NCBI GenBank assembly: GCA_032718865.1
Contig: JALUTQ010000039.1
Coordinates: 434,001-498,000 of the forward strand
Source: Tilletia caries
Taxonomy: Eukaryota; Basidiomycota; Exobasidiomycetes; Tilletiales; Tilletiaceae
Length of the DNA stretch: 64,000 nucleotides
Reading direction: 5' to 3'
Made by a program: the position numbers and the translations under genes. The first letter of the stretch is position 1; each line of letters opens with the position of its first letter. Under the pieces are notes generated by a model. It saw nothing but the letters and a program-made list of their open reading frames with translations, did no database searches and was not told the DNA's origin. Shown here one piece after another: positions 46,010-64,000 of this stretch.

Positions 46010-47445
46010 TAGTCTGGTATGAGACCAGACCGTGACTTCAGACTTGTAGCAGCGGAGGCGCAGCGTACCCGTCCGAAGGACGGTCTCACTGGAGGTTGAG
46101 GGGTGTTATTCACTGGTGAATACACGTGAATACATGTAATTGCGCCCGCTGTTCAGAGTTAGTACTTCTCCCGGAATAACGACAGCTGTTCGTCGCTGTT
46201 CGCCGCTGTTCGTACTTATTCATAGTTAGTACTTCTCCCGTAACAACCACAGCTGTTCGTCGCTGTTCGTCGCTGTTCCGTACTAGTATTCCGGAGGCAG
46301 CCCAGACTCCTCGGTTTTCGGCCCATCTTGTGAATTTCGAGGGTCTCCACGCGTCTTCACTGGATCTGAAAAAATTCATACCTTTTTTTTGGCCCAAACG
46401 ATGTTGCTTTTTGAAGACACAAAACCTCGTTTTTCAGTATTGCTACACGTATGTATGATGGAGAGGGATGTACTCCCCCGCACCAGGCATGCTCGATTGA
46501 CCAGGACGAGTGCGTGGCAGACCAGAGTGTGGACTACCGCGTCGGGTCATGATGCATGATGAGACGTGATGGACGATGCGTGATACGTGATGCGTATGTA
46601 ATGCTCAATGCTGCCATGGTGCGCTGGTGGAGAGTTTATCTATTGGAGAGAGCCTTAAATTTGCTAGCTGGTTCCTCCCCTGTTCACACTTGGTCACGGC
46701 GTTAATAACGGTGAATAACGGTGAATAACGATCGTTATTCACGCAGATGAACAGCGGTGAACAGGTGTCGCAAGGTTTCGTGTATTCGGGCCTTAATAAC
46801 GATCGTTATTCATCGTTAGTACCTCTATGGAATAACGACCCCCAAACCCCTGTGTCTGGTAGAACTCAACACTATTTTAAAGGAACCACCGACGCTGAGG
46901 GTCGTCTTTTGAGGGAAATACCACAACTGTTGGACCTTCGACCACTTATAAAATGTCACTCAAACACTTAGAAAACCACATGAGCAGTTGCTCTACTCCT
47001 CACAGACCATGCTCGTGTCATCTTTGGCCTGATCACTTGGAGGAATGGGGGTCAAAATCGACTGGCAGTAAGAGGCATTTCGCTGCCAACATGATTAAGC
47101 TTTCCTTATAGATGGTCGGCGATGATCATGGCTTTTCTGATCATTTCTTGAAAGGTCAAATACTGGGAAACACCACCAGACCACAGGCCACAGGACAACA
47201 TGACCTGAAGCATTAAGCAAAGGTGGTGGCGACTTGTTGGAGCAGGTACTGCCGCTTTCCGTTCTGTAAAAGGTGTTGTATTGGCTCAGATACGTGACAT
47301 GCGTCCGGGAAAAAATGTGGAGGCCAACGCCGGAGGCCTCTGAGTGAGGGGTGGTGTTAAGTAAATCGCCTCGAATCTTGCCAGACCGTGTACACGGCAA
47401 GATGCTCTGGCATCACGTGACACGGTCTGGTCTTCTACCAGACTA
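46010..47445. mobile_element. Non-autonomous Mutator-like element, 1.44 kb
   Basis: The ends are inverted copies of TAGTCTGGTA.GA(A/G)GACCAGACCGTG type (~25 bp), each with an internal TCTGGT/ACCAGA palindrome. The flanking sequence AGGCAGCCAC is duplicated perfectly at 46000-46009 and 47446-47455. A 9-11 bp duplication points to Mutator-like transposases. The interior has no credible gene but many GCTGTTCGTCG and GTTATTCACG motifs in clusters near both ends. Confidence 0.88.
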
Positions 47446-47675: not shown

Positions 47676-49165
47676 TTACTGCCGTCGGAAACCGCTTTGG
47701 GTCCCGGCCGACGCGTGCGCGCCACCCATCGTTGGAGCGAGGAGCTGAATAATGTTGAGCTGCTCGCGTGCGTCGCGCTCGTGTGGGACGTGGCCCCCAA
47801 TAACCCCAGGTCTTGCTCGTAAGCGAAAGTGCGCCTCTGCGTCGGCGAGAAGGCTGCGCAGCTCTGGGTCGTTGTTCGCCAGCGTGTCCAGTGCACCCTG
47901 CTGAACGGCGAGGAAAGGCGCCAAAATTTCTGCATGCTCACGGACGTAGCGCTTGAAGCTGTCGCCGTGCCACCGGCCGTGCATCATGACCTTGTCAACC
48001 GGCACACCCATGAGGAGCAGGACGGTGCATCCACCAATGCGCATCGAGTGGCCGTAGATGGAAGGCAGCTTGGCGCGCCGGGCGAAGGAGTCCGCCGTGG
48101 CGAGCAGCTCGGCGCGAGACAGCGGACGGAGGCTGTTGCCATCCCTGTACGCGAACAGCGCAGTCTCCGAAGGGTTCGCCGAGGGACTGATCGACAAATG
48201 ATTCCGCAGCCAGAGGAGGGGGTCACAGGCGGGATGGCGCTCTGGAATGACGATAGTCTCGCCAAAAGGCTCGGTCTTGGTGCGGGGCAGACGAAGGGTG
48301 AGGACGCTTTGTCCGCGAGCGGTGAGAGAGAGGCGCGCAGCGGTCCTGGTGACGTGGAGGCGGGGGTCGAAGGCGCCTGAGGAGATGGTGAGTTCGCCGA
48401 TGCGGCAGAGACCCCAGAAGCCGCAAATGAGGGCGGCAATGGCCGCAACCTCCTTCGGGGCAGTCGCCTCGACAACGGGGATAATGCTCACCAGCCAGCT
48501 GAGGGTCATGGGAGGGCGGGGGGGCTTAGGCGGCGGTTGTAGCAGCACCGCGCCGCGCTTGACGAGGCGGAGGCGGTCCTCGTCCACTATCCATGGGACG
48601 TCGTTGGCGGCATGCCAGGTCCTGAGCGCCGCAACTTTGTTGCTCAGATATTTGCCGCTCTGCCCGCCCGCGTCCTCCGCGATCCAATGCTCGACCAGGC
48701 ATTGCGCGGCCGGCGCGCGATGGTGCTCCTGTATCCCGTGCCGGTCGCAGTAGGCGTTCCACGACGCCAGCGCCGTGGAGTACTTCTCCTTGGTGCTGGC
48801 GGCGAGGCCCGCTAAGGCGATTAGCCGAGTACGCTGCTGGTGGTTGGGGGCGAGGAGCGAAGGACGTGGGGCAGAGGACGGGGGGCGCCAGGTATCGAAC
48901 CGGAGGGCGCCGGCGCACCGAGGCCGAAGGGCGTTGTGCCGCACCTCGATCTGTTTTGTCGTGTAGGTGCGACGAGAGATCCGAGAGGGGCAGCCGAGCG
49001 GTTTGTAGCAGAGGCCACGGCGAGGGGCTTGCGCGCGGCGGCGTCCGGTGCCGGCGAGAAGTTGGAGCGCCAGGCGCTGACAGCGCGCAGCAGTGCCGAG
49101 TCGTCGGGGGGGGGCTGGGGGGGGCAGAGCGCCAGGCTCCGACAGCGCGCAGCATGGCCGAGTCC
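47676..49165 (-). pseudogene. Tyrosine recombinase of a DIRS-like element
   Basis: The frame reads leftwards to a stop at 47676. N-terminal core-binding part: LAGLAASTKEKYSTALASWNAYC and WIAEDAGGQSGKYLSNKVAALRTWH. Catalytic part: first Arg in LICGFWGLCRIGELTI, beta region TRTAARLSL...LRLPRTKTEPFG, the HxxR box GHSMRIGG, then GRWHGDSFKRYVREH with the nucleophile Tyr. All of R, K, H-x-x-R and Y are visible, so the enzyme core looks intact. The open frame to the right enters the gypsy LTR at 49166, which supplies an artificial start; the true N-terminus is lost or uncertain. Together with the RT/RNase H on the same strand at 63-64 kb this forms a DIRS-like element split by the gypsy insertion. 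Confidence 0.85.
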
Positions 49166-49462
49166 TGTGATAGACGGTGGCTCTCATCCTCTCCTCTTCC
49201 CTTTTCTCCTCTCTCATTTCTCTTCTCTCAATGCTGCTCGCTTTCATAGATAGTAAATCCACGTGGCAAACCATGTGGCTTTACTATCTTATCTCCCTTT
49301 CCCTCTCTTATCTCCTTTCCCTTTCTTCCTCTCGCTTCTCTTCTCTCGGCCGAGTTCTTTCCCTCTCTCGTCCTCATCATCTTCCTGCTCACCACTCTCT
49401 TGTAGATAGCTTCCCCCATTATTCAACTCGCTTTCACTTGCCTAATAGCACCTGCTATTACA
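49166..49462 (+). repeat. 5' LTR of gypsy element B
   Basis: Begins TGTGATAGACGG and ends CTGCTATTACA (TG...CA borders). It is 297 bp and matches the copy at 62643-62939 almost base for base. It contains a strong palindrome at 49249-49288 around CCACGTGG. Confidence 0.95.
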
Positions 49463-49477: not shown

Positions 49478-49563
49478 ATACTGCTCGCTGACTGACAGAC
49501 AGAAGCCAGCCACCCACCGCTAGACCCTTCGTCCTCTCCCAACCCCCGCTTGTTTCTCCAACA

Positions 49564-51024
49564 ATGCCGCCCAAAGAGACCACACCCGCCATCACCCGCG
49601 GAAAGCAGCGCCAGCAGGGCGTTGAGTCCGACACTCCGACGGACATCCCTGCCACCGAAGTCGCGTCGGCTTCTGAGGCCCCGGTCGCGGAAAAAACCAT
49701 CGGCCAGCAACTCCGGGAGATCATCGACGGCCAGACAACTTTGATGGCCCGGGTCGAATCCCTCCAGCAATCCCATGACGAGATCTCCACGCGTGTTGAC
49801 CGCGTCGAGGTCGCATCCCCTCGGTCCTCCACGCCGAAGCCCTCTTCTGCGGCCGTTTCTGCCGCCCCGGAAATCTCGACGTCGACGTCGACGGGCTCTG
49901 ACCCGTCCTCGAACCAATCCGCGTCCTCGGCGTCGCGTTCCGGCCCCGCTCTCCCGATCACGATGCAGGACCTGCTCGGTACGATGACCCCGACTGACCA
50001 GAACGAGTTCCGTGCCCTCCTCGGAAAGTACAACTCGTCGATCACCAAGCTCTCTGCTGCGGGAGACAGCATGCAGTCAGTCCGGCCGGTAGCGCTGGTG
50101 GGTGGCAATCGCTCACTCACCTGCAAGAAGGACTCCTTGGGCGAGTTCGACGGCGACCCGAGCAAGCTCGAGCGTTTCCTGAGCAAGCTGCGGGACATCG
50201 CTCGCTCCAACAGCGATCCGATGTGGGAGCCGGCCGTGGTATGCACCCTCCCCCAGTGTCTCACTGGTGACGCCGAAACTTGGCACATCGGCCTTTCCAA
50301 CACGGCCGCCGCTGAGCTCTGCACGGTCGCGGACTGGATTCGCGTCATGCGTCTGCGTTTCCGCGTCAACAAGACGGATCAACGTCAGCAAGCTCGCCTC
50401 CGTGCCTGGAATGCTCCTTCGGAGCGGGCGATGACTTACTACTTTGACAAGATCCAGCTTTACCGTCAAGCCTTCGGAGATCTCTTCGCCGAGGCTGCCG
50501 TCGCACAGGAGGTCATTGCCGGCCTCCCGGCTTCGATGCGTGCGATGCTGCGTCTGCCGCAAGACGGTATTTCCCCCGAGGACGTTCAGGACGCCCTCAG
50601 CGACTGGGAGCCGACGTGGAGAGAAGTTAGCAACACGCCTCTCGTCATTACGACGTCGGCCGCTCAAACCGGAACCTCTGTTCCTTCAGCCTCGCCACTC
50701 ACCGCTCCTGCACCCGTCCGCCCACCTCGCTCCGATCTGCGGACCTCCCCGGCTTTGACTCGTCCTGCTGTACAGTCGACGTCGGGTGACAACCGCTTCG
50801 ACCCTTCTCGCGTCGTCGAGGCGACCGCAACCGAGAAGCGAGGGTATCGGCGGAACAACGGGTCGATCATGCGCCTGAATCGGCCATGCGGCCAGTGTGG
50901 CGAGCCCCACTTCGACTTTGAGCACGTCTGGCTCAAGGAGGGCGCCCGCGCCTTCCCGCTGGTCGCTGTGGGCGAGTACGATGTCGAGCTCCCCGAGATC
51001 GACAACGGGCAGTCTTTTGCCTAG
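49564..51024 (+). CDS. Gag of gypsy element B
   Basis: 486 residues. A coiled-coil N-terminus (IGQQLREIIDGQTTLMAR) is followed by a Ser-rich stretch. The capsid-like helical region comes next (GEFDGDPSKLERFLSKLRD, TGDAETWHIGLSN, QARLRAWNAP). The C-terminal zinc knuckle reads CGQCGEPHFDFEH, which is Cys2-His2 in spacing rather than the usual CCHC. The frame is intact, unlike pol. Confidence 0.9.
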   Translation: MPPKETTPAITRGKQRQQGVESDTPTDIPATEVASASEAPVAEKTIGQQLREIIDGQTTLMARVESLQQSHDEISTRVDRVEVASPRSSTPKPSSAAVSAAPEISTSTSTGSDPSSNQSASSASRSGPALPITMQDLLGTMTPTDQNEFRALLGKYNSSITKLSAAGDSMQSVRPVALVGGNRSLTCKKDSLGEFDGDPSKLERFLSKLRDIARSNSDPMWEPAVVCTLPQCLTGDAETWHIGLSNTAAAELCTVADWIRVMRLRFRVNKTDQRQQARLRAWNAPSERAMTYYFDKIQLYRQAFGDLFAEAAVAQEVIAGLPASMRAMLRLPQDGISPEDVQDALSDWEPTWREVSNTPLVITTSAAQTGTSVPSASPLTAPAPVRPPRSDLRTSPALTRPAVQSTSGDNRFDPSRVVEATATEKRGYRRNNGSIMRLNRPCGQCGEPHFDFEHVWLKEGARAFPLVAVGEYDVELPEIDNGQSFA

Positions 51025-51143: not shown

Positions 51144-53364
51144 TTGAGAAGGGATGACGGCACCCATCCACTGCCGATAAGCAGTAGAGACGGTCAGTTC
51201 GATCGTCTCGGTGAGTCGGTGCAACAAGCGACTCACAGCAACCCGCACCATCTCGCTGATGGTGGATTCAAGGGTCGTGGGGAGAGGGTTGCGTCCTGCT
51301 CTGGTCCAAGACAGGACCTCCCCACGGCGTACCACGACGACGCGGAGGCCATGTGCGGAGATGGCCGGGGACCCGGACCACCCCCGGACCTGAGACCCCA
51401 TGGACCCTTTTCAAGGGGAGTACAGACTCCCCCTTCTGTGAAAATAGGACGGCCTAATGAGCACGTTCTCCCTTTTACAGATTCTCTAACTAGTTTGCTG
51501 AATACGAGAGATTGTTTGATTGAGACGGCGCCGGCGCCGACGGGTGGGAAGGTACTTACCATCGTGCCCAGCCCCCACTTGTTTACCGCCCGCACGTTCT
51601 CCGTCGATCGTGAAGCGAAGCCCCTGCGTCAGAAGACGAGACGGAAGGGTCAGACGGTGGTGTTGCAGCCCGGACCGGAGGTGGGGACCGGCCTGGCTTA
51701 TCGCCGCCACGTACCACTCACAACTCTGATCCGTGTCAACGACACAGACGGCGCACCGCTGTCCTCGCTCTTGGACACGGGCGCTTCGTTGTCTGTAATC
51801 GATCGGAATCTGCTGGAGTTGTTGGGAGGCACCGTGCAAGGTCAGCCGCTGCGGATTCAGGGCCTGGGCCCGGCGTCATCTCTCGGCTGGAGCACACTCA
51901 CGTTCTTTATCGATGCTCGGAGTGCGCTCGGTGGCCGGTGTCGATCGAGTGCTCCGTGGACTTCCATGTCCTGGAGGCGTTCGCGCCGGGGCTGTGTTTG
52001 TGACAAGACTTCGTCAGTACACATGGCGTCGTCATCGACTCCGCCAAAGGCGCGGCGACTGTCGATAGCGGCGGCACGCTGCTCACCTTCTCGGTGCACG
52101 AGCACATGCCTGCACCTTATGCTACGGCTGCTGAGCTGTGTGTGGCGCGCGACGTGGTAGTGTCGGCCCGCTCTCACGCGTGGGTGCCCGTGGACGTTGC
52201 TTGTTTGGCGCCTGGGGTGGACTATACCGTGTTTCCCCGCTTGACTGTCGACGCCTCGGAGACCGTCCAGCTCGCCGGCCCGGTGGCTATCACCGGCCGC
52301 TCTGCGTCCCAAGTCCTCCTGACCAATGTTGGCACAACAGATGCTGTCTTGGCGCGCCGCACTCCTGTTGCCGACGCCCTTGTTGCGCGCCTCGGAGACG
52401 CCCAAGTCCAAACTGCTCGGACCTTCGAGCTTTCCTCCGTCTACCCCGTCGGCGCTGGTGTGCATCTGGCCGATGCCATGCCTGCCTCATCTGCTGATGT
52501 CGACGTGAGCCCGTTGGACATCTGCGAGGAGGCCGCTTCTTCGGTTCCCCCCGCTGTGCCTGCGGAGCCGACGACGGTGATGGTCGATGAAACGTTCCGG
52601 GTCGGCGTTGCTGCTACTGGCGAGCCGCATGCGGAGATCGTGGCGGTCCTTCGTCGTCATCGTGCTGCTTTCGCGTTGGACGGGCGACCTGGTCGGGTGG
52701 TGGGGCACGAAATGCCCATCGATCTGCGCGTCGACGCCGCTCTGCATCCTGAGGCTCCGCGCCGGGCAAGTCCCGAGAAGTGTCGCGCGATGGACTCCGC
52801 CATCGACCAGTTGTTGTCATGGGATGTGATCGAGCCCAGCTCCAGCCCGGTTTCCTTTCCCGTCTTGATGATACGCCAATACGACAAATGGCGGTTCTGC
52901 ATAGATTATCGTCAGGTGAACGCCCAAACCATCCCCGACTCCTATCCACTGCCGACGACCGACTCGGTGTTTAACTCACTGACGGGAAAGCGCATCTTTA
53001 GTTCCCTTGATGCGCTGCGTGGGTATCACCAGTTGGGCGTTCGCGAGCAGGACCGGTGGAAGACAGCGTTTACCTGTCATCGTGGCCTGTTTCAGTACAA
53101 GACCATACCGTTCGGGCTGCGCAACGCCCCAGCTGTCTTCCAACGCCTGATGGATGCGCTGCTGGGCGAGCTTCGTTGGAGGGATGCGGTCGTATATATT
53201 GACGACGTCGTTGTGGCGACCCACACCATGGCGGAGCATGTCGTTGCGCTCGAGACCCTGTTGGCGCGCATGGCCTCGGCGGGCCTTCGCTTCAGTCCGG
53301 CGAAGTGTACCTTCGCAGTGTCGTCGTTGGTGCTGCTTGGGAGGAAGGTATCCGGTGCTGGTGT
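51144..53364 (+). pseudogene. Pol of element B, part 1: protease and reverse transcriptase
   Basis: Spacer homologous to element A (PDLRPHGPFSRGVQ), then aspartic protease LLDTGASLSVID, then after a frameshift near 51.93 kb the RT. An in-frame TGA lies at about 51999 where A reads CLGQDF. RT shows RFCIDYRQVNA, FSSLDALRGYHQL, FGLRNAPAVFQRLMD and the catalytic AVVYIDDVV. The frame ends abruptly at LLGRKVSGAG where element A was inserted, and continues at 60367. Confidence 0.92.
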
Positions 53365-53656
53365 TGTAATAGACTAGCTATACAAGTGCTTCAGAGTTGT
53401 GATTCCATGTCCGGAGCAAGTAAGTACAAGTGCAGGGAGCAGCGAGAAGGTGACGAGCACGAGAGAGGGAAGGCACTCGGCCGAGAGAGGACAAAGGGAA
53501 AGGTAGCGACGTGAGGGGAGCGAGCAAGAAAGATAAGAGAGAAAGGGAGATAAGATAGTGAGTCCACGTGGAGTTGCCACGTGGAGCCACTATCTCCGGA
53601 AGCGAGAGCAGTAGAGAAAAAAAAGAAAGAAAGAAAGGCCTGACCCGTCTAGCACA
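53365..53656 (-). repeat. 3' LTR of gypsy element A
   Basis: 292 bp, bordered on the plus strand by TGTAATAGAC and TCTAGCACA. It holds the palindrome at 53554-53594 (GATAGTG...CACTATC around two CCACGTGG). Confidence 0.93.
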
Positions 53657-56600
53657 TCCCCGCGTCGAGCAGAACGTCCGTCTCGGGACGAACGACCAGC
53701 CTGGACAACGCATCAGCATTGGTGTGTGTGGTGCCTGGCCGATGAACGAAGCGCAGATGCGCGAGATGCGGCATCAGCTGCGCCCGGCAACGCGAAATCA
53801 CCGGTCCATAGCGCGCCCCGGCCGAACTCGTGAGCATCGCCCCCAACGGAGCGTGATCCGTCACCACGGTTACGTCGGCCCCCTCCAACAAGTGGAGGAA
53901 TCGCCCAAAAGCCCACGCAAGGCACGACAGCTCCAGCTCAGGCGCGACAAGCTTTTGCTCCGATAGCATGGTCAACCGGGACAAGAAGGCGACAGGTCGC
54001 TCCGTCAAGATCACCGTCCGGCCATCAACCTCGAGACGCCGAGCGCGATGGAGCGGACCACGCAAAGCATCGTACAACGAGGACGACATAGCATGGACGC
54101 GCGCCGACACGTCATACTCTCGCAACACACCCGGAGTGCGCCGAGCCCGCGGGGGGGACGAGGAACCGGAGAGGAAGCACGAGAAGACGGTGCGAAAGGA
54201 GAAGCAGGCGCAACCCGATCAGCGTCCTCGACGGGCGAACCCGCACGGTGAGTGACGTACGGATCCTCATCCCCAGGGACAGCATCCAACTGACTGACCG
54301 CAAACGTGTCTCCAATCCTCAGGTCCGCCGGCAGCTCCAACCGCACCCGGTGGTCACTAAGGACCGCACTGATCCGGAAAGGACCCATCTTCTGCGGCGC
54401 CAGCTTATTCTCCTGGGAACCCGGAATCGGTCGATCCGGCAAACGCACAAAGACGGCATCCCCTACAGCATACGAGGGCAACGGCGCCCGGACCGCATCA
54501 TAGCGCGCTTTTTGAGCGCGACGAGCTTCCGCCAGCGAGGCACGAGCATCCTCCAACCGCGCTCCCGCCGCCGTCAACCGCTCAACAAATGATCCGACAC
54601 CCTCATGCTCTTGCGCATCAAAGACGGCGTGTACCACATCCGGATGGGCAACGAAGACCAGGTCGAACGGACAAACGCCGGTGGACACGGACGGGGTGGA
54701 ATTCATCGCCAACTCCGCGGCAGGTACGGCGCGCTTGTCCCAATGAGCACGGGAGTCCAAGCACAACGTCTGCAGGACGCGCTTGACGGTCTGGATAGAC
54801 CGTTCGACCGGGTTGGCTTGGTGGTGATGAGGGACCGACGGCGACAACACAGCTCCCAGCGACGTCGCTAAGGCAGACATAACGACGCCGGACAACCGCG
54901 CTTCCGAGTCCGGGATCAAGCGACTCGGTCGCCATCCGTAACGGAGCACGCGGTCGCTGAGGATAGCGGCGACACCCTCAGCCGTGACCGACGCGGCGCA
55001 CGGCTCGAGCAGGATCATGCGCGAGAACAGGTCCAACACCACAAGGACGGCATCATTACCAGCCCTCGACCGCGGGAAACCCAGCAATAAGTCCACCGAG
55101 ATGGACTGGAACGGGAGGGAGGCGTCATCCTCGACATCTAACCGTCCGGTCCGGCGTGCCAACTTCGTTGCAACGCAAGGTGGGCAATGCTTAACCCAGG
55201 CTCGAACAGCAACTGACAGCGCCGGACGCCAGAAATGTCGCCGAACAGCCAGATACGTCTTGGTGAATCCGAAGTGACCGCGTTGATCATGGACGGTGCG
55301 AAGGATGTCCGGAACACCGCCTTCGGGTAGCGCGAGCAGCCCATCTTGGCGGCGAATGAGGAGACCATCCTGCATCACCCACTCAGGCTCCTCAACACCA
55401 GCATCCAGAGCGCGAAGGATTGGGCCAAAGTGGCGGTCTCGACATAGCCAGGCATGCCAACGCTCGCGTGCGACCGTGGATGGAAGCAACGAGGACTGCT
55501 GCACGGGAATCGCCGCAGCGGAAAGCGACACAGCCGGTGCCGGATCATCCACCTCAAAGACCTGGTGCAATACCGCACCAAAACCATCCTTACTCGCGTC
55601 CACGTAAAGCACATAAGGCCGAGCGGGATCCGGATGCGCGAGGACCGGCGGAGAAGCAATCGCCCTCTTCAACGTCTCGAACGCGGCGTCCTGCTCGTCA
55701 CCCCACGGAATCTCGACCCTATCCGCAGAGGCAGGGGACCCATCGGTCGCGACGAGCCGAGTGCGATCCCCACACCGCTCATACCGCCATCCCCGTGTCA
55801 AGGCGGTCAATGGGGCCGCAACGGTTGCAAATCGAGGAATGAACGAGCGGTAGTACCCAAAGAGCCCCATGGCATGGTACAGTTGCCGCAACGTCTTTGG
55901 TCGAGCCAAATCCAACACAGCACGAGCACGATCGGACCAGACCGCCACCCCCCGCGCCGGACACCTTCCTCCCGAGTAGCGTCAGGGACGGCACGCCGAA
56001 GGTGCACTTCGCTTGGCTGAAGCGAAGACCGACGTCTTCCGCGCGAGCCAGCAAGGTCTCTAACGCGTGTACATGCTCGTCCATGGTGTTCGTCGCCACA
56101 ACGACATCGTCAATGTAAACCACAGCCACCTTCCATCGCAGATCCCCAAGCAGCGAGTCCATCAGCCGCTGGAACACCGCGGGCGCATTGCGCAAGCCGA
56201 AGGGCACGGTGCGGTATTGGAAAAGGCCACGGTGACACGTGAACGCCGTCTTCCACCGGTCGCTTTCCCGCACACCGAGCTGATGATACCCCCGCAGGGC
56301 GTCCAGTGAACTGTACACTCGCTTCCCTGCCAACGAGTTGAAGATGGCATCAGTGGTCGGAAGAGGATACGCGTCCGCCACCGTATGCGCATTCAGCTTT
56401 CGATAATCCACGCAAAAGCGCCACTTCTCGCCCTGGCGGACCATCAAGACGGGGAAGGAGACCGAACTGGAGCTGGGCTCGATCACCTCCCACTCCAACA
56501 GCTGATCAATCGTTGCATCCATGGCGCGCTGCTTCTCCGGACTCGCGCGGCGCGGGGCCTCGGGGTGAACGTTGCGATCGTCGTCAAGATCAATGGACAT

Positions 56601-58589
56601 CTCATGGCCGACAACTCGACCAGGCCGACCGTCAAGAGCAAACGCTGCCGAATGACGACCCAGTACCGCAACAATGTCCGGATGCGGACGACCCTCAGCG
56701 TCAAGCCCGACTTTGAACACACCGTCGACCATCGCAACGGACACCTCCTCCGTCGGCGACGGGAGATCGGACCCATCGACCGATTCACACACGTCCAGCG
56801 GGTCGATGTCGACCTCGACAGAGAAAGACAAGGACGAGCCGGCCGCATGATACGCCTCTCCCGGCATGGCCGCAGGCAAGTCGAAGACGTGCGCCGCATG
56901 CACCCCCACCTCACCAAGTTGGGCGACCACAGCGTCGGCGACCGGAGTACGGCGAGAAAGAGAGGTGGAGAGGGTACCGACATTGGTCAGGAGGACATGC
57001 GCCGTCCGGGAGTCGATCACAGCCAGTGGCCCCGCCAAGCGCACGGTCTCCGCGGCGTTGGACATCAGTCGAGGAAACGCGGTGTAGTCGAGACCGGGAG
57101 CCAATGGGGCGGTGTCGACGGGGACCCAGGCATGGGAACGAGCGGGAATAACGATGTCGCGCGTCGTGCAAAGCTCGGCTTGACGGGCATAGGGCCCCGG
57201 CATGTGCTCACGCACTGGAAACGTGAGTGGATTCCCATTGTGCTCCAGCACGGCAGTGCCACGACGAGAGTGGATGGCGATTCCATGTGTGCTAATGAAA
57301 TCCTGCCCCAAACACAGTCCGGGCGCGAACGCCTCGAGCACATGGAAGTCGACGGTGCACTCCATGCACAAGGACTGGCCGACGGCATCATCGACGGCGA
57401 CGAAGAACGTCATCGTACTCCACCCCAAGGACGACTTGGAGCCGATGCCGTGGATAGGCAGGGGTTGGCCTTGGACCGTGCCTCCCAACGTCTCGAGCAG
57501 CTGGCGATCGATTATGGAGAGAGATGAGCCAGTGTCCAGGAGGGAGGACAGGGGGTTACCAGAGGCGTCATTAATGCGAATGTGCATGGTAAGTGGCACA
57601 TGATGTCTGTATGCTGTCCCCGTGCCCACCTCCGGTCCAGGAGCAATTGTCACGATCTTTCCAATGCGTCGCGTCTTCTGACGCAATGGTCTATTCTCTC
57701 GGTTCACAGGGAACGTCCGCGCAGTGAAGAACTGCGGCAGAGGTTCGATGCGTAAAGCAAGCGCCGGTATGGGCGCGTTTCCACTTGTGGACGGTTGTCC
57801 CTCCCCATCCTCAGGTGCGTTCACAGCTTCATCTCTGACTGTGCATTCTAAATCTGTAAATGGAGAAACGTGCTTATTAGGCCGTTCCAACTCAGCAGAA
57901 AGGGGAGACTGTACTCCCCTAGAAAGGTGCCCATGGGGTCTCAGATCAGGGAGTGGTCCAATCTCCCTGTCATCTCCACACATGGTCATGCCTACATGGT
58001 ACCCGGCAGGGAGGTCCCGTCTTGGACCAGAGGGGGACGTAGCCCTCTCCCTGCCGCTCTTGAATCTGGTCTCAGTGTGAGTCCAGGGGCTACGACGAGC
58101 TGTCTCCGGCGCGAGCTCGTCAGGACAGTCGTGCTGACCATCCTTGCTGCTTGGCAGCGGAGGGGCGCTTCCCTCCCTTCCAAGATCCAGCCTCACCGCA
58201 GCTTCGACAGGGCTGGCATAGGGCCCTGCGTCAGTCTGGTTAGAGGAAGGATGTGGGATGGACCAGTGAGTATTGGTCGATAGTTTAACGTCGTCACGGA
58301 CAAATGAGACTGAATCAGACTCCGTCTCCGTCACTTCCAAGCTCTCCACGACCGCAGCATGTACGACGGGCGCATCGGGAGGGTGAGGAGGCGGGCGGGC
58401 CCGTTCGACGTCGGTGCCCGCCACTAGTTTACCGTCGTTGCGGACGCTCAAAAAAAGGGGCCAGGCCAAGATCAGCCTCATCGATCTCCGGATAGTCGGC
58501 GACCGTGAGTGTGTTGATTTGGCCGGCTTGGAGCAGATGTTCGTGCTCAAAGTCAAAATGCTCTCCCCCCACAGCGATTGCAGTTCCAA
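53649..58589 (-). CDS. Pol of element A: protease, RT, RNase H first part, integrase, RNase H second part
   Basis: Minus-strand order. Protease: LLDTGSSLSIID. RT: RFCVDYRKLNA, SSLDALRGYHQL, VVYIDDVVV. The connection follows, then the first RNase H segment YVDASKDGFGAVLHQ (Asp near 55600). Integrase comes next: zinc motif HDQRGHFG...CPPC, catalytic SVDLLLGFP, IPDSEARL, QANPVERSI. A C-terminal region with VAVWS-type start is separate. Finally the remaining RNase H: RPVAFLSRLT, the glutamate in PELELSCLAW, VTDHAPLGAM and NADALSRL (53999 down to ~53690). The frame changes near 55.95 kb (six-base C run, one base too many by comparison with B) and near 54.15 kb (seven-base G run). The usual family order is RT-RNase H-integrase with RNase H whole; here it is split. 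Confidence 0.9.
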
Positions 58590-59841
58590 CCCAGCCGCAA
58601 CACCTTATTGGAGTTGGGCCGGCGGTACATGCGCGGCAGCCCATTCGCGGCCGGCACGATCCGAGCGGGATCGTATGTCGCCGGCAAGGAGGTCTGCGGG
58701 CCCGGGGCCGTCACCGATGCGGGAGGAACGGTGTGATGCACCGCACGGGGAGGACGAGGAGGGGGGGCGCGGACGTCGGAGCCTGCCGGATCGGGGCAGA
58801 AACCGGAGCTGACGGGGTTTTGACGACCTTGTCCGACGACATCGAGCTCGAGTCGAGGAGAGGAATGTTGTGCACCTTCCTCCAGACTGGCTCCCAACGG
58901 ATGATGGCGTCCTGAAGATCATCGAGGACGGCACCTTCCTCCGGCAAGCGAATGTACGCATACATGGAGGGCGGCAACTTGTCGGCCACCTCTTGCACCA
59001 GAACGCTCTCCGTGTACGAATCGCCGAACGCGTAACGCAAGAGCTGGACCTTGTCAAACAGGTAAGCCATTCCAGACTCCTGAGACTCTTGCCACCGGCG
59101 ATCATGCGCGTCCTGACGAAGCTGCGCCCGGTTTACAGCAAAGGCGCGACGCATCAGACGCGCGTAATCCTCCACCGTGCGGAGGCCGCGCACAGTCGTC
59201 GTTGGCAGGCCTGCATGCCAGCGAGCCGCGATCCCTTCCAGCGCCTGGGGAATCGCCACCACGACCGCAGGTTCCCACGCGGGATCGGAGTTGGAGCGAG
59301 CCATATCGGCAACCCGACTGAGGAACCGCTCCAAGCGGGTGGGCTCGCCGTCGTAGGAGCCAATGAGCTCCCGCTGGCACTTGAGCGGACGCGACACGGG
59401 AGGGGCCGCTGTCGGAGGGCGCGAGTCGAGATCGGTGAGGGTGTATCCCGCGCGACCAAGCGCGGAAGTGACGACACTTCGGGAATCGGAAGGCAGACGC
59501 GACCACAACGCCGGATGTTGCGCGGCGAGTCGTGCGGCTGCCTGCTCGGTAGGGGACGAGACCGATCGAGCGTCGTCAGAGGGGGATTTGGTGGCCACGT
59601 CGGGTGCGACGTTGGTGGAGGTGTCGGGAGCAACCGCAGCCGCAGCGATGGGCGGTTGAGCTGGGGTGGCCAACGTGGCCAGCTTGTAGTCCACAGCGTC
59701 CATCCGGGAGTCCATCCTGGTCATGAACGAAGCCAGAGTCGAGGCAACATCTTCGAGGGTGATGGCGGGTGGGTCGGACAAAGGAGAACCGGACCGAGAG
59801 GTGGTCGGCTCTTCCTTAGACTTGCCGGATCCTTTTGGCAT
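58429..59841 (-). CDS. Gag of element A
   Basis: Starts MPKGSGKSKEEPTTS at 59841. A helical capsid region (GSYDGEPTRLERFLSRVADMARSN, GIAARWHAGLPT, LFDKVQLLRYAFGDSYTE) parallels Gag of B. The C-terminal zinc motif NCNRCGGEHFDFEH is reached only after frame changes at a seven-base G run (~58.75 kb) and a six-base C run (~58.57 kb), and the protein then ends near 58429. The zinc ligands are Cys2-His2. Confidence 0.85.
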
Positions 59842-59916
59842 GGCGAATGTGAGTGGGGAGATGGCTGGGGGGGTGGGTGTGTTCCTTCTGTCGTTCAGTG
59901 TAAACTTGGAATCTAT

Positions 59917-59929
59917 ACTCTCATCACCA
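59917..59929 (-). other. Primer-binding site of element A
   Basis: On the minus strand TGGTGATGAGAGT directly follows the end of the partial LTR, the expected position and sequence for a tRNA primer site, and the same tRNA as in element B. Confidence 0.85.
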
Positions 59930-60040
59930 TGTAATAGACTAGCTATACAAGTGCTTCAGAGTTGTGATTCCATGTCCGGAGCAAGTAAGTACAAGTGCAG
60001 GGAGCAGCGAGAAGGTGACGAGCACGAGAGAGGGAAGGCA
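59930..60040 (-). repeat. Partial LTR (inner copy) of element A
   Basis: 111 bp identical to the plus-strand start of the LTR (TGTAATAGAC to GGAAGGCA). It stops abruptly, and the tRNA-derived 36 bp follow. In the element's own orientation this is the last 111 bp of the LTR, possibly R-U5. Confidence 0.88.
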
Positions 60041-60076
60041 GAAAGGGCGTGGGTTCGAATCCCACTCTCATCACCA
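60041..60076 (+). other. tRNA 3'-half fragment with CCA between two LTR copies
   Basis: Reads GAAAGGGCG, then a full T-arm (GTGGG TTCGAAT CCCAC), then TCTCATCA and CCA. The CCA is not encoded in nuclear tRNA genes, so the source was a mature tRNA or a copied primer. The bases before the T-arm look like a long variable arm, as in Leu or Ser tRNAs. It is not a tRNA gene: the 5' half is absent. Confidence 0.85.
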
Positions 60077-60366
60077 TGTAATAGACTAGCTATACAAGTG
60101 CTTCAGAGTTGTGATTCCATGTCCGGAGCAAGTAAGTACAAGTGCAGGGAGCAGCGAGAAGGTGACGAGCACGAGAGAGGGAAGGCACTCGGCCGAGAGA
60201 GGACAAAGGGAAAGGTAGCGACGTGAGGGGGAGCGAGCAAGAAAGATAAGAGAGAAAGGGAGATAAGATAGTGAGTCCACGTGGAGTTGCCACGTGGAGC
60301 CACTATCTCCGGAAGCGAGAGCAGTAGAGAAAAAGAAAGAAAGAAAGGCCTGACCCGTCTAGCACA
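60077..60366 (-). repeat. 5' LTR of gypsy element A (outer copy)
   Basis: 290 bp, nearly identical to 53365-53656; its right border (AGCACA) abuts the target duplication GGTGT. In the element's orientation it is the first LTR. Confidence 0.93.
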
Positions 60367-62642
60367 GGTGTGGCCGTGTGGGGTGACCGAGCGAAGGCCG
60401 TGTTGGATCTGCCTCGGCCGAGGACTCTCCGCGACCTTTATCACGTACTTGGGCTCTTCGGCTATTACCGCGCCTTTGTGCCGAGGTTCGCTACCGTTGC
60501 TGCTCCCCTGTCCCAGCTCACACAGGGGCCAGGGCTGGCGGTACGATCGGGTTGGCGAACGGTATCAGCTGGTGGGCGCCGATGGCGTCGCCGCGTCTGC
60601 TGCTCGTGTCGAGATTCCGTGGGGGGATGCTCAGCAGTCGGCTTTTGACCTGTTGAAGGCCGCTATTGCTTCCCCTCCCGTCCTCGCGCACCCCGATCCA
60701 ACGCGCCCATACCTCCTGTACGTGGACGCCAGCAAAGAAGGGTTTGGAGCCGTGCTGCACCAGGTATTTGACCGAGACGTTGAGCCGAGCGCTACGAGGA
60801 TGTTCCCTCTCGCCGCGCGCTTGCTGCCGTCGACGGTGACGAAGGAGAGATGGCGCACCTGGCTGCTGGGTAATCCCTTTTCGGGCCCATTGTGCGGTCG
60901 CTGGAGGACGGCGAGGGGGCCTCCGATGAATGGCTCGTGGAGGATGGCGTTCTCGTTCGTCGTGTTGAGGGCGTCCTGGCCCTGCCTGACGCTGGTGTGC
61001 CGTTCATTCTTCGGGCGGCTCACGACTCCGCCGGGCACTTCGGTTTTTCGAAGACGTTCTTGCGCGTCCGTCGTCACTTCTGGCGCCCGAGTCTGTCAGT
61101 TGCGGTGCGCGCGTGGGTGCGGCACTGTGCTGCGTGCATCTCCACGAAGTTGATGCGCAGGACGGGAGAGTTGGATATCGGGAAGGATGCCGTGTTGCCT
61201 TTCGAAGCGATCTCCATCGACTTGCTGCTTGGGTTTCCCCGCTCTCGGGCGGGACACGACGCCGTGCTGGTTGTCCTCGACCTGTTCTCGCGCATGGTTT
61301 TGATGGAGCCTTGTTCTTCGTCCGTTACGTCGGAGGACATTGCGGCTATCTTGAGCGACCGTGTATTGCGAATGGGATGACGTCCACGATGTCTGATTCC
61401 CGATTCGGAGGCGCGTTTGACTGGCGATGTGATGCGTCGGTTGGCTGCCTCTCTTCAGGCCGAGCTTCGTCCCTCCCTTCCTCACCACCACCAGGCAAAC
61501 CCTGTAGAGCGCACCATCCAGACTGCCAAATTCGTTCTTCAGTCCCTCTGCGTCACGTCCAAGGCGCACTGGGACCGCCGGGCCGTTCCGGCGGCGGAGC
61601 TTGCCATCAACTCCACCCCGTCCGTGACCACCGGTGAGCGGCCGTTCGACTTGATCTTTGTGGCTCATCCCGACCTGGTCCACGCCGTGTTTGACTCGGA
61701 GGAGCACTCTGGCGTAGGCAGCTTTGCGGAACGCCTGGCTGCGGCTGACGCAAGGTTGGCGGAGGCGCGGGAGTCGGTGTCCGTGGCGCGTGCGGCGCAG
61801 AAGCGAAACTACGACCGATCGCACGCCGCTCTTCCGATTCTGGAGCGGGGCGCGCGTGTCTTCGTTCGTTTGGATGATCGGCCGATGCCGGGAGCCTCTC
61901 GGGATAAGTTGTCGTCGAGAAAGCAGGGCCCGTACGAGGTGATAGAGGTGCTGTCGCCTCACCGCGTCCGGCTAGCGCTCCCTGCAGGAATCGGCATTGG
62001 AGATGAGTTTGATGTCAGTCAGTTGGATGTCGAACCGGCCCTGCCCGATCCTTTTGCTGCTCACCGTGTCGCGTCGCCGCCAGCGGACCCATCATCTCCT
62101 GCCCCCGGTTCTCCTGAGCTGCCCCCTGTCACATCTCCCGCGCTTCTTCCTCGTGTGCGGCGTCCTCCTCCTGAGCTCCGCGAGTACGAGCTGGGACCGA
62201 CTGCGTTTCCGCTCACGGCCGTCCCTTTGGAGGCATTGCGGGGCCCGTACCGTCGTCCTCGTCACCTTCAGCTGGACGATGGGCGAGAGGTGGTGTTGGA
62301 GGAACGGCCGGTGGCCTTCTTGTCGCGGTTGACGGCGCCGGCCGAGCGGAAGCTGGTGGCCGCGGAGCTCGAACTTTGCTGCTTGGCGTGGTCCTTCGGT
62401 CGGTTTCTTCACCTCTTGGAGGGCGCAGAGGTCACCGTCGTAACGGATCACGCGCCTCTCGGCGCGATGTTGACGAGCTCGGCCGGGGCGAAGTACGGGC
62501 CTGTGATTTCGCGATGTCGCGCGCTCCTCTTGCCGCATTTGTCGAATCTTCGGTTCGTCCATCGACCGGGTAGCGCCCACACCAACGCTGACGCGTTGTC
62601 TCGGCTTGTGGTTCGTCCCGAGACGGACGAGCTGCTTGGGGA
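60367..62642 (+). pseudogene. Pol of element B, part 2: RNase H first part, integrase, RNase H second part
   Basis: Continues directly from 53364 with AVWGDRAKAVLDL. First RNase H segment LYVDASKEGFGAVLHQ at ~60.72 kb. Integrase: HDSAGHFG...CAAC, SIDLLLGFP, IPDSEARL, QANPVERTI, to about 62.05 kb. Second RNase H segment RPVAFLSRLT...ELELCCLAW...VTDHAPLGAM...NADALSRL at 62305-62606, right before the LTR. Defects: a 7-bp insertion near 60.53 kb, a single-base loss near 60.88 kb, and TGG to TGA at about 61378 (RVLRMG then stop, where A has YGW). Confidence 0.92.
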
Positions 62643-62939
62643 TGTGATAGACGGTGGCTCTCATCCTCTCCTCTTCCCTTTTCTCCTCTCTCATTTCTCT
62701 TCTCTCAATGCTGCTCGCTTTCATAGATAGTAAATCCACGTGGCAAACCATGTGGCTTTACTATCTTATCTCCCTTTCCCTCTCTTATCTTCTTTCCCTT
62801 TCTTCCTCTCGCTTCTCTTCTGTCGGCCGAGTTCTTTCCCTCTCTCGTCCTCATCATCTTCCTGCTCACCACTCTCTTGTAGATAGCTTCCCCCATTATT
62901 CAACTCGCTTTCACTTGCCTAATAGCACCTGCTATTACA
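62643..62939 (+). repeat. 3' LTR of gypsy element B
   Basis: 297 bp, almost identical to 49166-49462, with the palindrome at about 62726-62765. It borders the DIRS-like RNase H. Confidence 0.95.
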
Positions 62940-62954: not shown

Positions 62955-64000
62955 TCACCAGCTGGTGCCGAACCAGCACCTGACTGCCCCAGGAAGATCT
63001 GGAACAGGGAGGCGACTCGGATTGCCGTTGGAGGCGCCACGGGAAGGGACGTCAGCGGGGTTCGCCTTGGTATTGACATACCGGAGGTGGACGCAAAGCA
63101 GGTGAGCTCGTTCCAAAGCCGCAACGCGCTCGAGCACGGCGTTGGGCTGCTCGGACGCCATGCGACCGGCTTTGTAGGCCCCGATGACCGCTGTGCTGTC
63201 TGAATAGATGAGGATGGCTTTATTAGTGTGTCCGAGCAAGATCGCTGTCCGGACGGCCAGCTCGAGAGCGAGCGCCTCCACAACTTTGATGTCGACACGA
63301 CCCACGTGCTCAGGGAGCAAAGGGTAGCTGCGCTCCACGCCAGCAATGTGTAGGCCCGCGCCATAAGACGTCGAACCGTCACAGAAGCAGGAGATGTCGA
63401 TGGGAGGAGCTGGATCGAAGCAATGCCAGTAGTTGTCGAGGTAGAGCCGCTGCTCCCACCAGTCCAGATCTGCCCGGAGCCGCGGCCCGTCGTGGCGAAG
63501 CTGGTAGCGCCGGCCTGGCTCGCGGGCGGCAGAGGCGACGAAGTTAATGAGCGCCTGGACGTGCCACTTCCCGTCTTCGTGGACGGCTCGAGCGTGCTGG
63601 AGTTTGCCGAGGAGGGACTGAGCTTCGGCCAGCTGGTGGCGCTGTCCGTCGGACTTCCAGGCTTCGATACTGCGCAGGTACTTGAGGCGCTTCTTGTCGG
63701 GAAGGGCGACTTCCCGGGTCGGGATGTTGAAGCGCAGCCCGGTGAACTCGAAGACGCCGGACCAGGGCGCGTCTTTCCGAGGTTCCCAGGGCCACCCGAG
63801 CTCAGCGGAGACGGCGTCGATGTCGCCAACGCCGCAGTTGTACCCGTCTTCGGCGCCGGGCTGCACCGTGAGCTCGGCGGCGTAGTCCTCGTCGTGCTGC
63901 TCGCCGTCGGCGTCCACCCAGCTGAGCCGGCCACGTTGTGACGTTGGAGCAGTGGCGAGGCGCCTCCGCTGGGCAGCGCGGGCGGCGTTGACCTCGGCGA
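62955..64000 (-). CDS. RT C-terminus and RNase H of a DIRS-like element, cut by window edge
   Basis: Open leftwards from the window end to a TGA at 62955. The right part resembles the RT thumb of fungal DIRS-type elements (LGWPWEPRKDAPWSG, FTGLRFNIPTREVALPDKKRLKYL). RNase H follows: ISCFCDGSTSYGAGLHI (first Asp), the acidic VVEALALELAVRTAI, IYSDSTAVIGAYKAGR, and VRYVNTKANPADVPSRG. Same strand as the tyrosine recombinase at 47.7-49.2 kb and the right order (RT-RNase H then recombinase). The two are therefore taken as one element split by gypsy B. Confidence 0.8.
   Translation of the reverse strand, partial: AEVNAARAAQRRRLATAPTSQRGRLSWVDADGEQHDEDYAAELTVQPGAEDGYNCGVGDIDAVSAELGWPWEPRKDAPWSGVFEFTGLRFNIPTREVALPDKKRLKYLRSIEAWKSDGQRHQLAEAQSLLGKLQHARAVHEDGKWHVQALINFVASAAREPGRRYQLRHDGPRLRADLDWWEQRLYLDNYWHCFDPAPPIDISCFCDGSTSYGAGLHIAGVERSYPLLPEHVGRVDIKVVEALALELAVRTAILLGHTNKAILIYSDSTAVIGAYKAGRMASEQPNAVLERVAALERAHLLCVHLRYVNTKANPADVPSRGASNGNPSRLPVPDLPGAVRCWFGTSW

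Follow-up and report, generated by a model that had tools for sequence, protein, structure and literature searches.

RNase H segments of two nested retroelements

The window analyzed here, a 64,000-nucleotide stretch of Tilletia caries DNA (G000:C34:434001-498000) from a parent genome of 38.1 Mb in 40 contigs, carries two long terminal repeat (LTR) retroelements at its right end, element A on the + strand and element B on the - strand. B is nested in A, between the A reverse transcriptase (RT) and the start of the A RNase H (Table 1). An earlier reading of the letters alone (the original prediction) had claimed that each element carries an RNase H split by the integrase, within 53649-62642 and in opposite orientations. 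Pfam profiles agree, as the profile scan that it proposed finds RNase H pieces on both sides of the integrase in A as well as in B. Of PF17917 (RT_RNaseH), positions 1-25 in A and 1-26 in B map between RT and integrase; the segment that maps after the SH3_Tf2-1 domain, near the LTR, comprises 29-89 in A and 30-89 in B. PF17919 is cut likewise, into 1-52 and 55-100 in A and into 1-53 and 55-100 in B. Taken alone, the N-terminal pieces of PF17917 (18.5 bits in A, 18.1 in B; cut-off 24.8) and the C-terminal pieces of PF17919 (27.3 and 22.2 bits; cut-off 29.8) score under threshold, and the N pieces of PF17919 (58.7 and 59.3 bits) and C pieces of PF17917 (47.6 and 43.6 bits) score well above it. 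The profile positions of the two halves are complementary and nearly gap-free in A, in B, and in the further copies with positions shown.

The break could be located on a known structure. Aligned to the Ty3 RT/RNase H chain 4ol8_A, the N part runs to residue 375 and the C part begins at residue 383, so just a seven-residue turn is missing; the original prediction had likewise put the break at the turn after the first hairpin. The same chain is the best PDB match of the RT (E 5.2e-56 for the pol of copy L009). On its own, the C part matches structures weakly (E 1.4 for 4ol8_A and 0.25 for 7q5b_A) and its Pfam profile strongly (E 2e-12 in A). Between the RT connection and RNase H, the L009 pol has ∼25 residues more than Ty3 (32 versus 7).

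Table 1. Features of elements A and B, in window coordinates
Feature	Position	Strand	Details
Element A 5′ LTR	49166..49462	+	begins TGTGATAGAC, ends TATTACA; 297 nt
Element A gag-like frame	49492..51024	+	long open frame; Retrotrans_gag 17.2 bits, under cut-off 24.1
Element A reverse transcriptase (RVT_1)	52883..53341	+	Pfam E 2.5e-30; coordinates computed from residues
Element B 3′ LTR	~53365..53656	-	paired with 60077-60366
Element B RNase H C-terminal part	53697..54077	-	PF17917 30-89, E 3.5e-11
Element B integrase SH3-like C-terminal domain	54284..54463	-	E 1.1e-10
Element B integrase H2C2 and core	54824..55315	-	H2C2 E 1e-13; rve 16.9 bits, below cut-off
Element B RNase H N-terminal part	55547..55705	-	YVDASKDGFGAVLHQ; PF17919 1-53, E 4.1e-16
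Element B reverse transcriptase	55971..56429	-	E 2.1e-30
Element B aspartic protease (LDTGSS)	57432..57578	-	Asp_protease_2 22.9 bits, slightly under cut-off 24.3
Element B putative primer-binding site	60050..60076	-	complement resembles tRNA 3′ end (GGTTCGAATCC ... CCA); by eye, without host tRNA comparison
Element B 5′ LTR	60077..60366	-	paired with ~53365-53656
Element A RNase H N-terminal part	60620..60775	+	YVDASKEGFGAVLHQ, first catalytic Asp; PF17919 1-52 (E 6.1e-16), PF17917 1-25 (below cut-off)
Element A integrase zinc-binding domain (H2C2)	61006..61149	+	E 7.1e-15
Element A integrase core to SH3-like C-terminal domain	61207..62025	+	rve 16.7 bits (below cut-off); SH3_Tf2-1 32.7 bits
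Element A RNase H C-terminal part	62227..62607	+	RPVAFLSRL ... AELEL ... TDHAPL ... NADALSRL; PF17917 29-89, E 2e-12
Element A 3′ LTR	62643..62939	+	paired with 49166-49462

Domain order across the genome

A six-frame search of the genome with the C part of A returned 152 matches, which include second pieces of single copies and, at the weak end, canonical elements. Thirty split copies were picked for long frames and spread, and 10 controls were picked from the 12 listed matches with ≤38% identity, which are distant Ty3-like elements (L039-L048). All 30 split copies have the order RT-RNaseH(N)-integrase-RNaseH(C), with RT ahead of integrase in every one. RT, both RNase H halves and integrase share one uninterrupted frame in 20 copies, and the two halves lie in one open frame spanning the integrase in 27, the C part being incomplete in a few. 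The controls belong to the same RT, RNase H and integrase families but have their RNase H in one piece, with the halves adjoining in 10/10 and in one frame in 9/10. The hairpin and the RPVAFLS motif stand 8-13 residues apart in nine controls and 513-580 residues apart in the 27 split copies with both halves in one frame. An integrase match lies downstream in three controls, and the other seven have none to the integrase query used. Five control frames that were scanned carry PF17917 1-102/103 as one stretch, followed in three by the start or all of H2C2.

The RNase H split goes beyond A and B and extends to a large family in the window's genome. Genome-wide, 97 of 113 integrase matches have an N part 5′ and a C part 3′, while 6 are without the C part and 10 without the N part. 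Viewed from the C part (n = 132 matches), an integrase stands upstream of 107, an N part directly upstream of 6, and the match tables show neither close to the other 19. All six pol families are matched in 17/17 members of our alignment set A1, and in most of the 17 aligned copies the pol frame stops a short way past the C part. The protease precedes RT in the seven whole frames scanned, its matches being weak and some below cut-off. Four loci with an apparently reversed order turned out to be neighboring split elements in tandem on contigs C3 and C5; two such elements stand at G000:C3:1428189-1434447, and likewise at G000:C5:1297523-1303859.

The original prediction had argued that the same order in two diverged elements is not a chance rearrangement, and the 30 further copies agree. 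It had also named two findings that would speak against it. The first, a complete RNase H between RT and integrase after frameshift correction, is not seen, and the uninterrupted natural copies need no such correction; an origin of the C-terminal segment in another protein family fails as well, with PF17917 matched in 17/17 A1 members (and placed at the C part in the one member with positions shown). An assembly error, or chance rearrangement in decayed copies, is barely credible as an explanation. Frame breaks do occur in A and B, where the integrase stretch of A has a single in-frame stop (TGA at 61378-61380), and comparison of B with four B-family copies (L011, L012, L037 and L038) over 5.80-5.96 kb shows 1-2 substitutions each but 12-16 gap bases. 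This excess of gaps suggests indel errors in the sequence, which may account for many of the breaks in A and B. Indels, however, cannot reorder domains, and the breaks leave the domain order untouched, which recurs at the 97 integrase matches on many contigs and in diverged families. One further break was seen at the same spot of RNaseH(C), after HLLE (query 64-66), in L028 and L037, which belong to different families.

The uninterrupted frames also bear on splicing, by which the integrase stretch would be removed from part of the RNA to restore a contiguous RNase H. GT directly follows the HQ codon in 14 of 17 copies, which speaks for such a donor. However, the frame is open through the integrase with all four parts in 20/30 copies, the best AG column near the C part is present in 10/17, and the donor GTRNGT was found in 0/17 over the 114-141 nt scanned from the first Asp, weak or shifted sites not being sought. 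We regard splicing as highly improbable. The uninterrupted frames fit a recent spread of the elements, as do their young LTRs (2 mismatches in 297 nt in A; 0 mismatches and 2 gap openings over 293 aligned columns in B) and 11 B-family integrase matches that share one score.

Active site, selection, and RT tree

All four catalytic acidic residues of RNase H are kept in 29/30 split copies. Selection was gauged by the ratio of nonsynonymous to synonymous substitution rates (dN/dS) in 10 copy pairs, which are not all independent; only finite values were used, and since many dS values are saturated, the ratios are guides. We obtained dN/dS of 0.01-0.11 for RNaseH(N) (6 pairs) and 0.05-0.12 for RNaseH(C) (8 pairs), next to 0.04-0.14 for integrase (10 pairs) and 0.01-0.04 for RT (5 pairs). 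For the long linker ahead of the C part the ratio was 0.21-0.64 (10 pairs), and for the short tether 0 to 1.11 (9 pairs), the 18-23 codons of the tether being too few to weigh. Judged by these ratios, both RNase H halves are under purifying selection of about the strength seen for integrase and weaker than that for RT. Decay of RNase H was considered and rejected in view of this selection on both halves.

The split copies are diverged, with integrase identity to L009 as low as 46%. In the RT tree, 25 split rows fall on one side of a 100/100 branch, with 9 control rows on the other. Given this branch and the range of integrase identity, the split seems to predate the spread of the lineage.

These data also weigh on whether the divided RNase H works. 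Were it nonfunctional, the N part would survive as the mere end of the RT connection, the C part would be an integrase appendage serving some other role, and the host would supply RNase H. The open copy L026, with its Asp to Asn change, would suit such a loss, as would the fact that activity of the split enzyme is deduced from sequence. Nevertheless, the four active-site residues persist in 29/30 copies spanning integrase identities down to 46%, dN/dS is about 0.1 or less in both parts, and an element-encoded RNase H is described as obligatory in LTR elements (PMC5348765). A nonfunctional RNase H is therefore unlikely. We hold it to be very unlikely that the C part makes up a complete RNase H unaided, with an upstream DGREVVL-like segment replacing the first hairpin and its Asp. 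A strand-like segment does stand ahead of RPVAFLSR in the 17 aligned copies (by eye), but an Asp precedes its Gly in just 7/17 (by eye; in a few others it is one or two places off), so that the segment hardly replaces the first catalytic Asp, and the N-part Asp is kept in 29/30.

A proposed divided RNase H site and its relation to known retroelements

Taken together, the profiles, copy surveys, contiguous controls, active-site residues and dN/dS support the claim of the original prediction that integrase is nested in RNase H in a conserved way. We find it quite probable that A and B are members of a single large Ty3/gypsy-like lineage, that RNaseH(C) and integrase swapped places once in its history, and that the two halves complete one site around the nested integrase. 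The order and its conservation, the uninterrupted frames, the selection and the single RT branch are observed, whereas structural tolerance of the nested domain and an active RNase H are inferred; the fold, the mode of assembly (cis or trans) and the route of the swap would be as follows. Two neighboring pol blocks, the entire integrase and the final two thirds of RNase H, would have exchanged places once in an ancestor, for instance by tandem duplication of RNaseH(C)-integrase and subsequent complementary loss. The resulting polyprotein would run from protease and RT to the RNase H β-hairpin with the first catalytic Asp, a short tether and integrase, and then through a long loose linker to the remainder of RNase H, which carries Glu, Asp and Asp. 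The N hairpin would remain attached to the RT connection, with integrase next on its short tether. Since the break lies in a turn and the linker is long and loose, the C piece could reach the hairpin; the linker, variable in length, would let it fold back and complete one RNase H active site, and the assembled RNase H would still remove the RNA template during reverse transcription. On balance, we lean slightly toward a site built from two segments flanking integrase within one RT-RNase H-integrase machine, which would couple RNA removal, DNA synthesis and integration throughout the lineage and in which protease cuts in the tethers could switch RNase H off.

First folding would, by a modest preference, be intramolecular and occur in the RT-RNase H-integrase precursor rather than in trans after the protease cuts the tethers. 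Assembly in trans, a variant of the favored reading, is somewhat less likely. Here the protease would free RT-RNaseH(N), integrase and a small RNaseH(C) peptide, which would rejoin noncovalently as a split enzyme, and processing would let RNase H be controlled. In its favor, the long linker is loose and evolves fast (dN/dS 0.21-0.64), a frequent trait of linkers that are cleaved, and most of the 17 aligned copies end their frame shortly past the C part. A loose linker, however, suits folding in cis equally well, and the 18-23 codons of the short tether do not suffice for a verdict.

Several points weigh against a functional RNase H closed around the integrase. A and B themselves have frame breaks, and L026 has Asn at the first RNase H Asp in a frame that is otherwise open. 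The RT tree carries the program's long-branch warning. An AlphaFold2 model of the window's RNaseH(C), made from two alignment rows, reached a predicted local distance difference test score of 48, too poor to use. All split copies stem from one genome, and no relatives of the split elements were found in viral_contigs or genome_contigs (viral and prokaryotic collections).

The lineage resembles Ty3 of yeast and other Ty3/gypsy elements (Metaviridae), with LTRs (paired LTRs being established for A and B), a gag-like frame, an aspartic protease, an RT of the Ty3 kind, an H2C2 and DDE-type integrase after RT, and an SH3-like integrase C-terminus. It differs in that RNase H is in two parts around integrase, with no whole RNase H between RT and integrase. 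A chromodomain, a chromovirus trait, was not detected, since no such family matched at E ≤0.01 in 17 RT-to-end frames (L027 being judged on its whole frame). Gmr1-like gypsy elements also have a changed pol order, with integrase ahead of RT and RNase H whole, whereas integrase follows RT in 30/30 split copies. The RT-integrase fusion subunit (beta) of avian retroviruses likewise joins RT, RNase H and integrase in one chain, but RNase H is undivided there and precedes integrase. To our knowledge, no lineage with integrase inside RNase H has been described. An unusual RNase H make-up is shared with the dual-RNase H elements (plant Tat, oomycete Archon and Chronos), which have an additional archaeal-type RNase H in a Ty3/gypsy pol (PMC5348765). 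The split lineage instead divides one RNase H, and a family scan of seven whole pol frames found no second or archaeal-type RNase H.

Pol domain order is treated as a defining retroelement trait and RNase H as a compact unit on RT. If the reading is correct, the lineage would hold a natural split enzyme, an RNase H fold interrupted by a multidomain integrase of ∼500 residues, and would allow a test of whether, and to what extent, RT, RNase H and integrase work as a single machine. It would also defeat annotation rules under which RNase H is always undivided.

Further features were noted in and around the two elements. A transfer RNA (tRNA) scan of the window found none. Elsewhere in the genome, one STE3-like receptor locus in three pieces suggests a fungal host, and a hydrophobin search returned no match, its control being silent as well. 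An exact 124-nt repeat lies at the 5′ end of B (59917-60040 and 60064-60187, 147 nt apart) and contains the LTR end and 13 nt of the primer-binding site. A weak dUTPase-like match was seen between protease and RT, at 52004-53377 (+) in A (18.6 bits; cut-off 22) and in L009 (14.9 bits). A is inserted between two frames that look DIRS-like by eye, 47676-49280 (-) and 62955-63998 (-), which we read as tyrosine recombinase and RT/RNase H, respectively. Their Pfam matches are weak, with the recombinase at 18.1 bits (cut-off 27.1) and the RT/RNase H frame without a clear match. Lastly, a tandem repeat of two copies, ∼91-92% alike and spaced by 67 nt, lies at 46152-46284.

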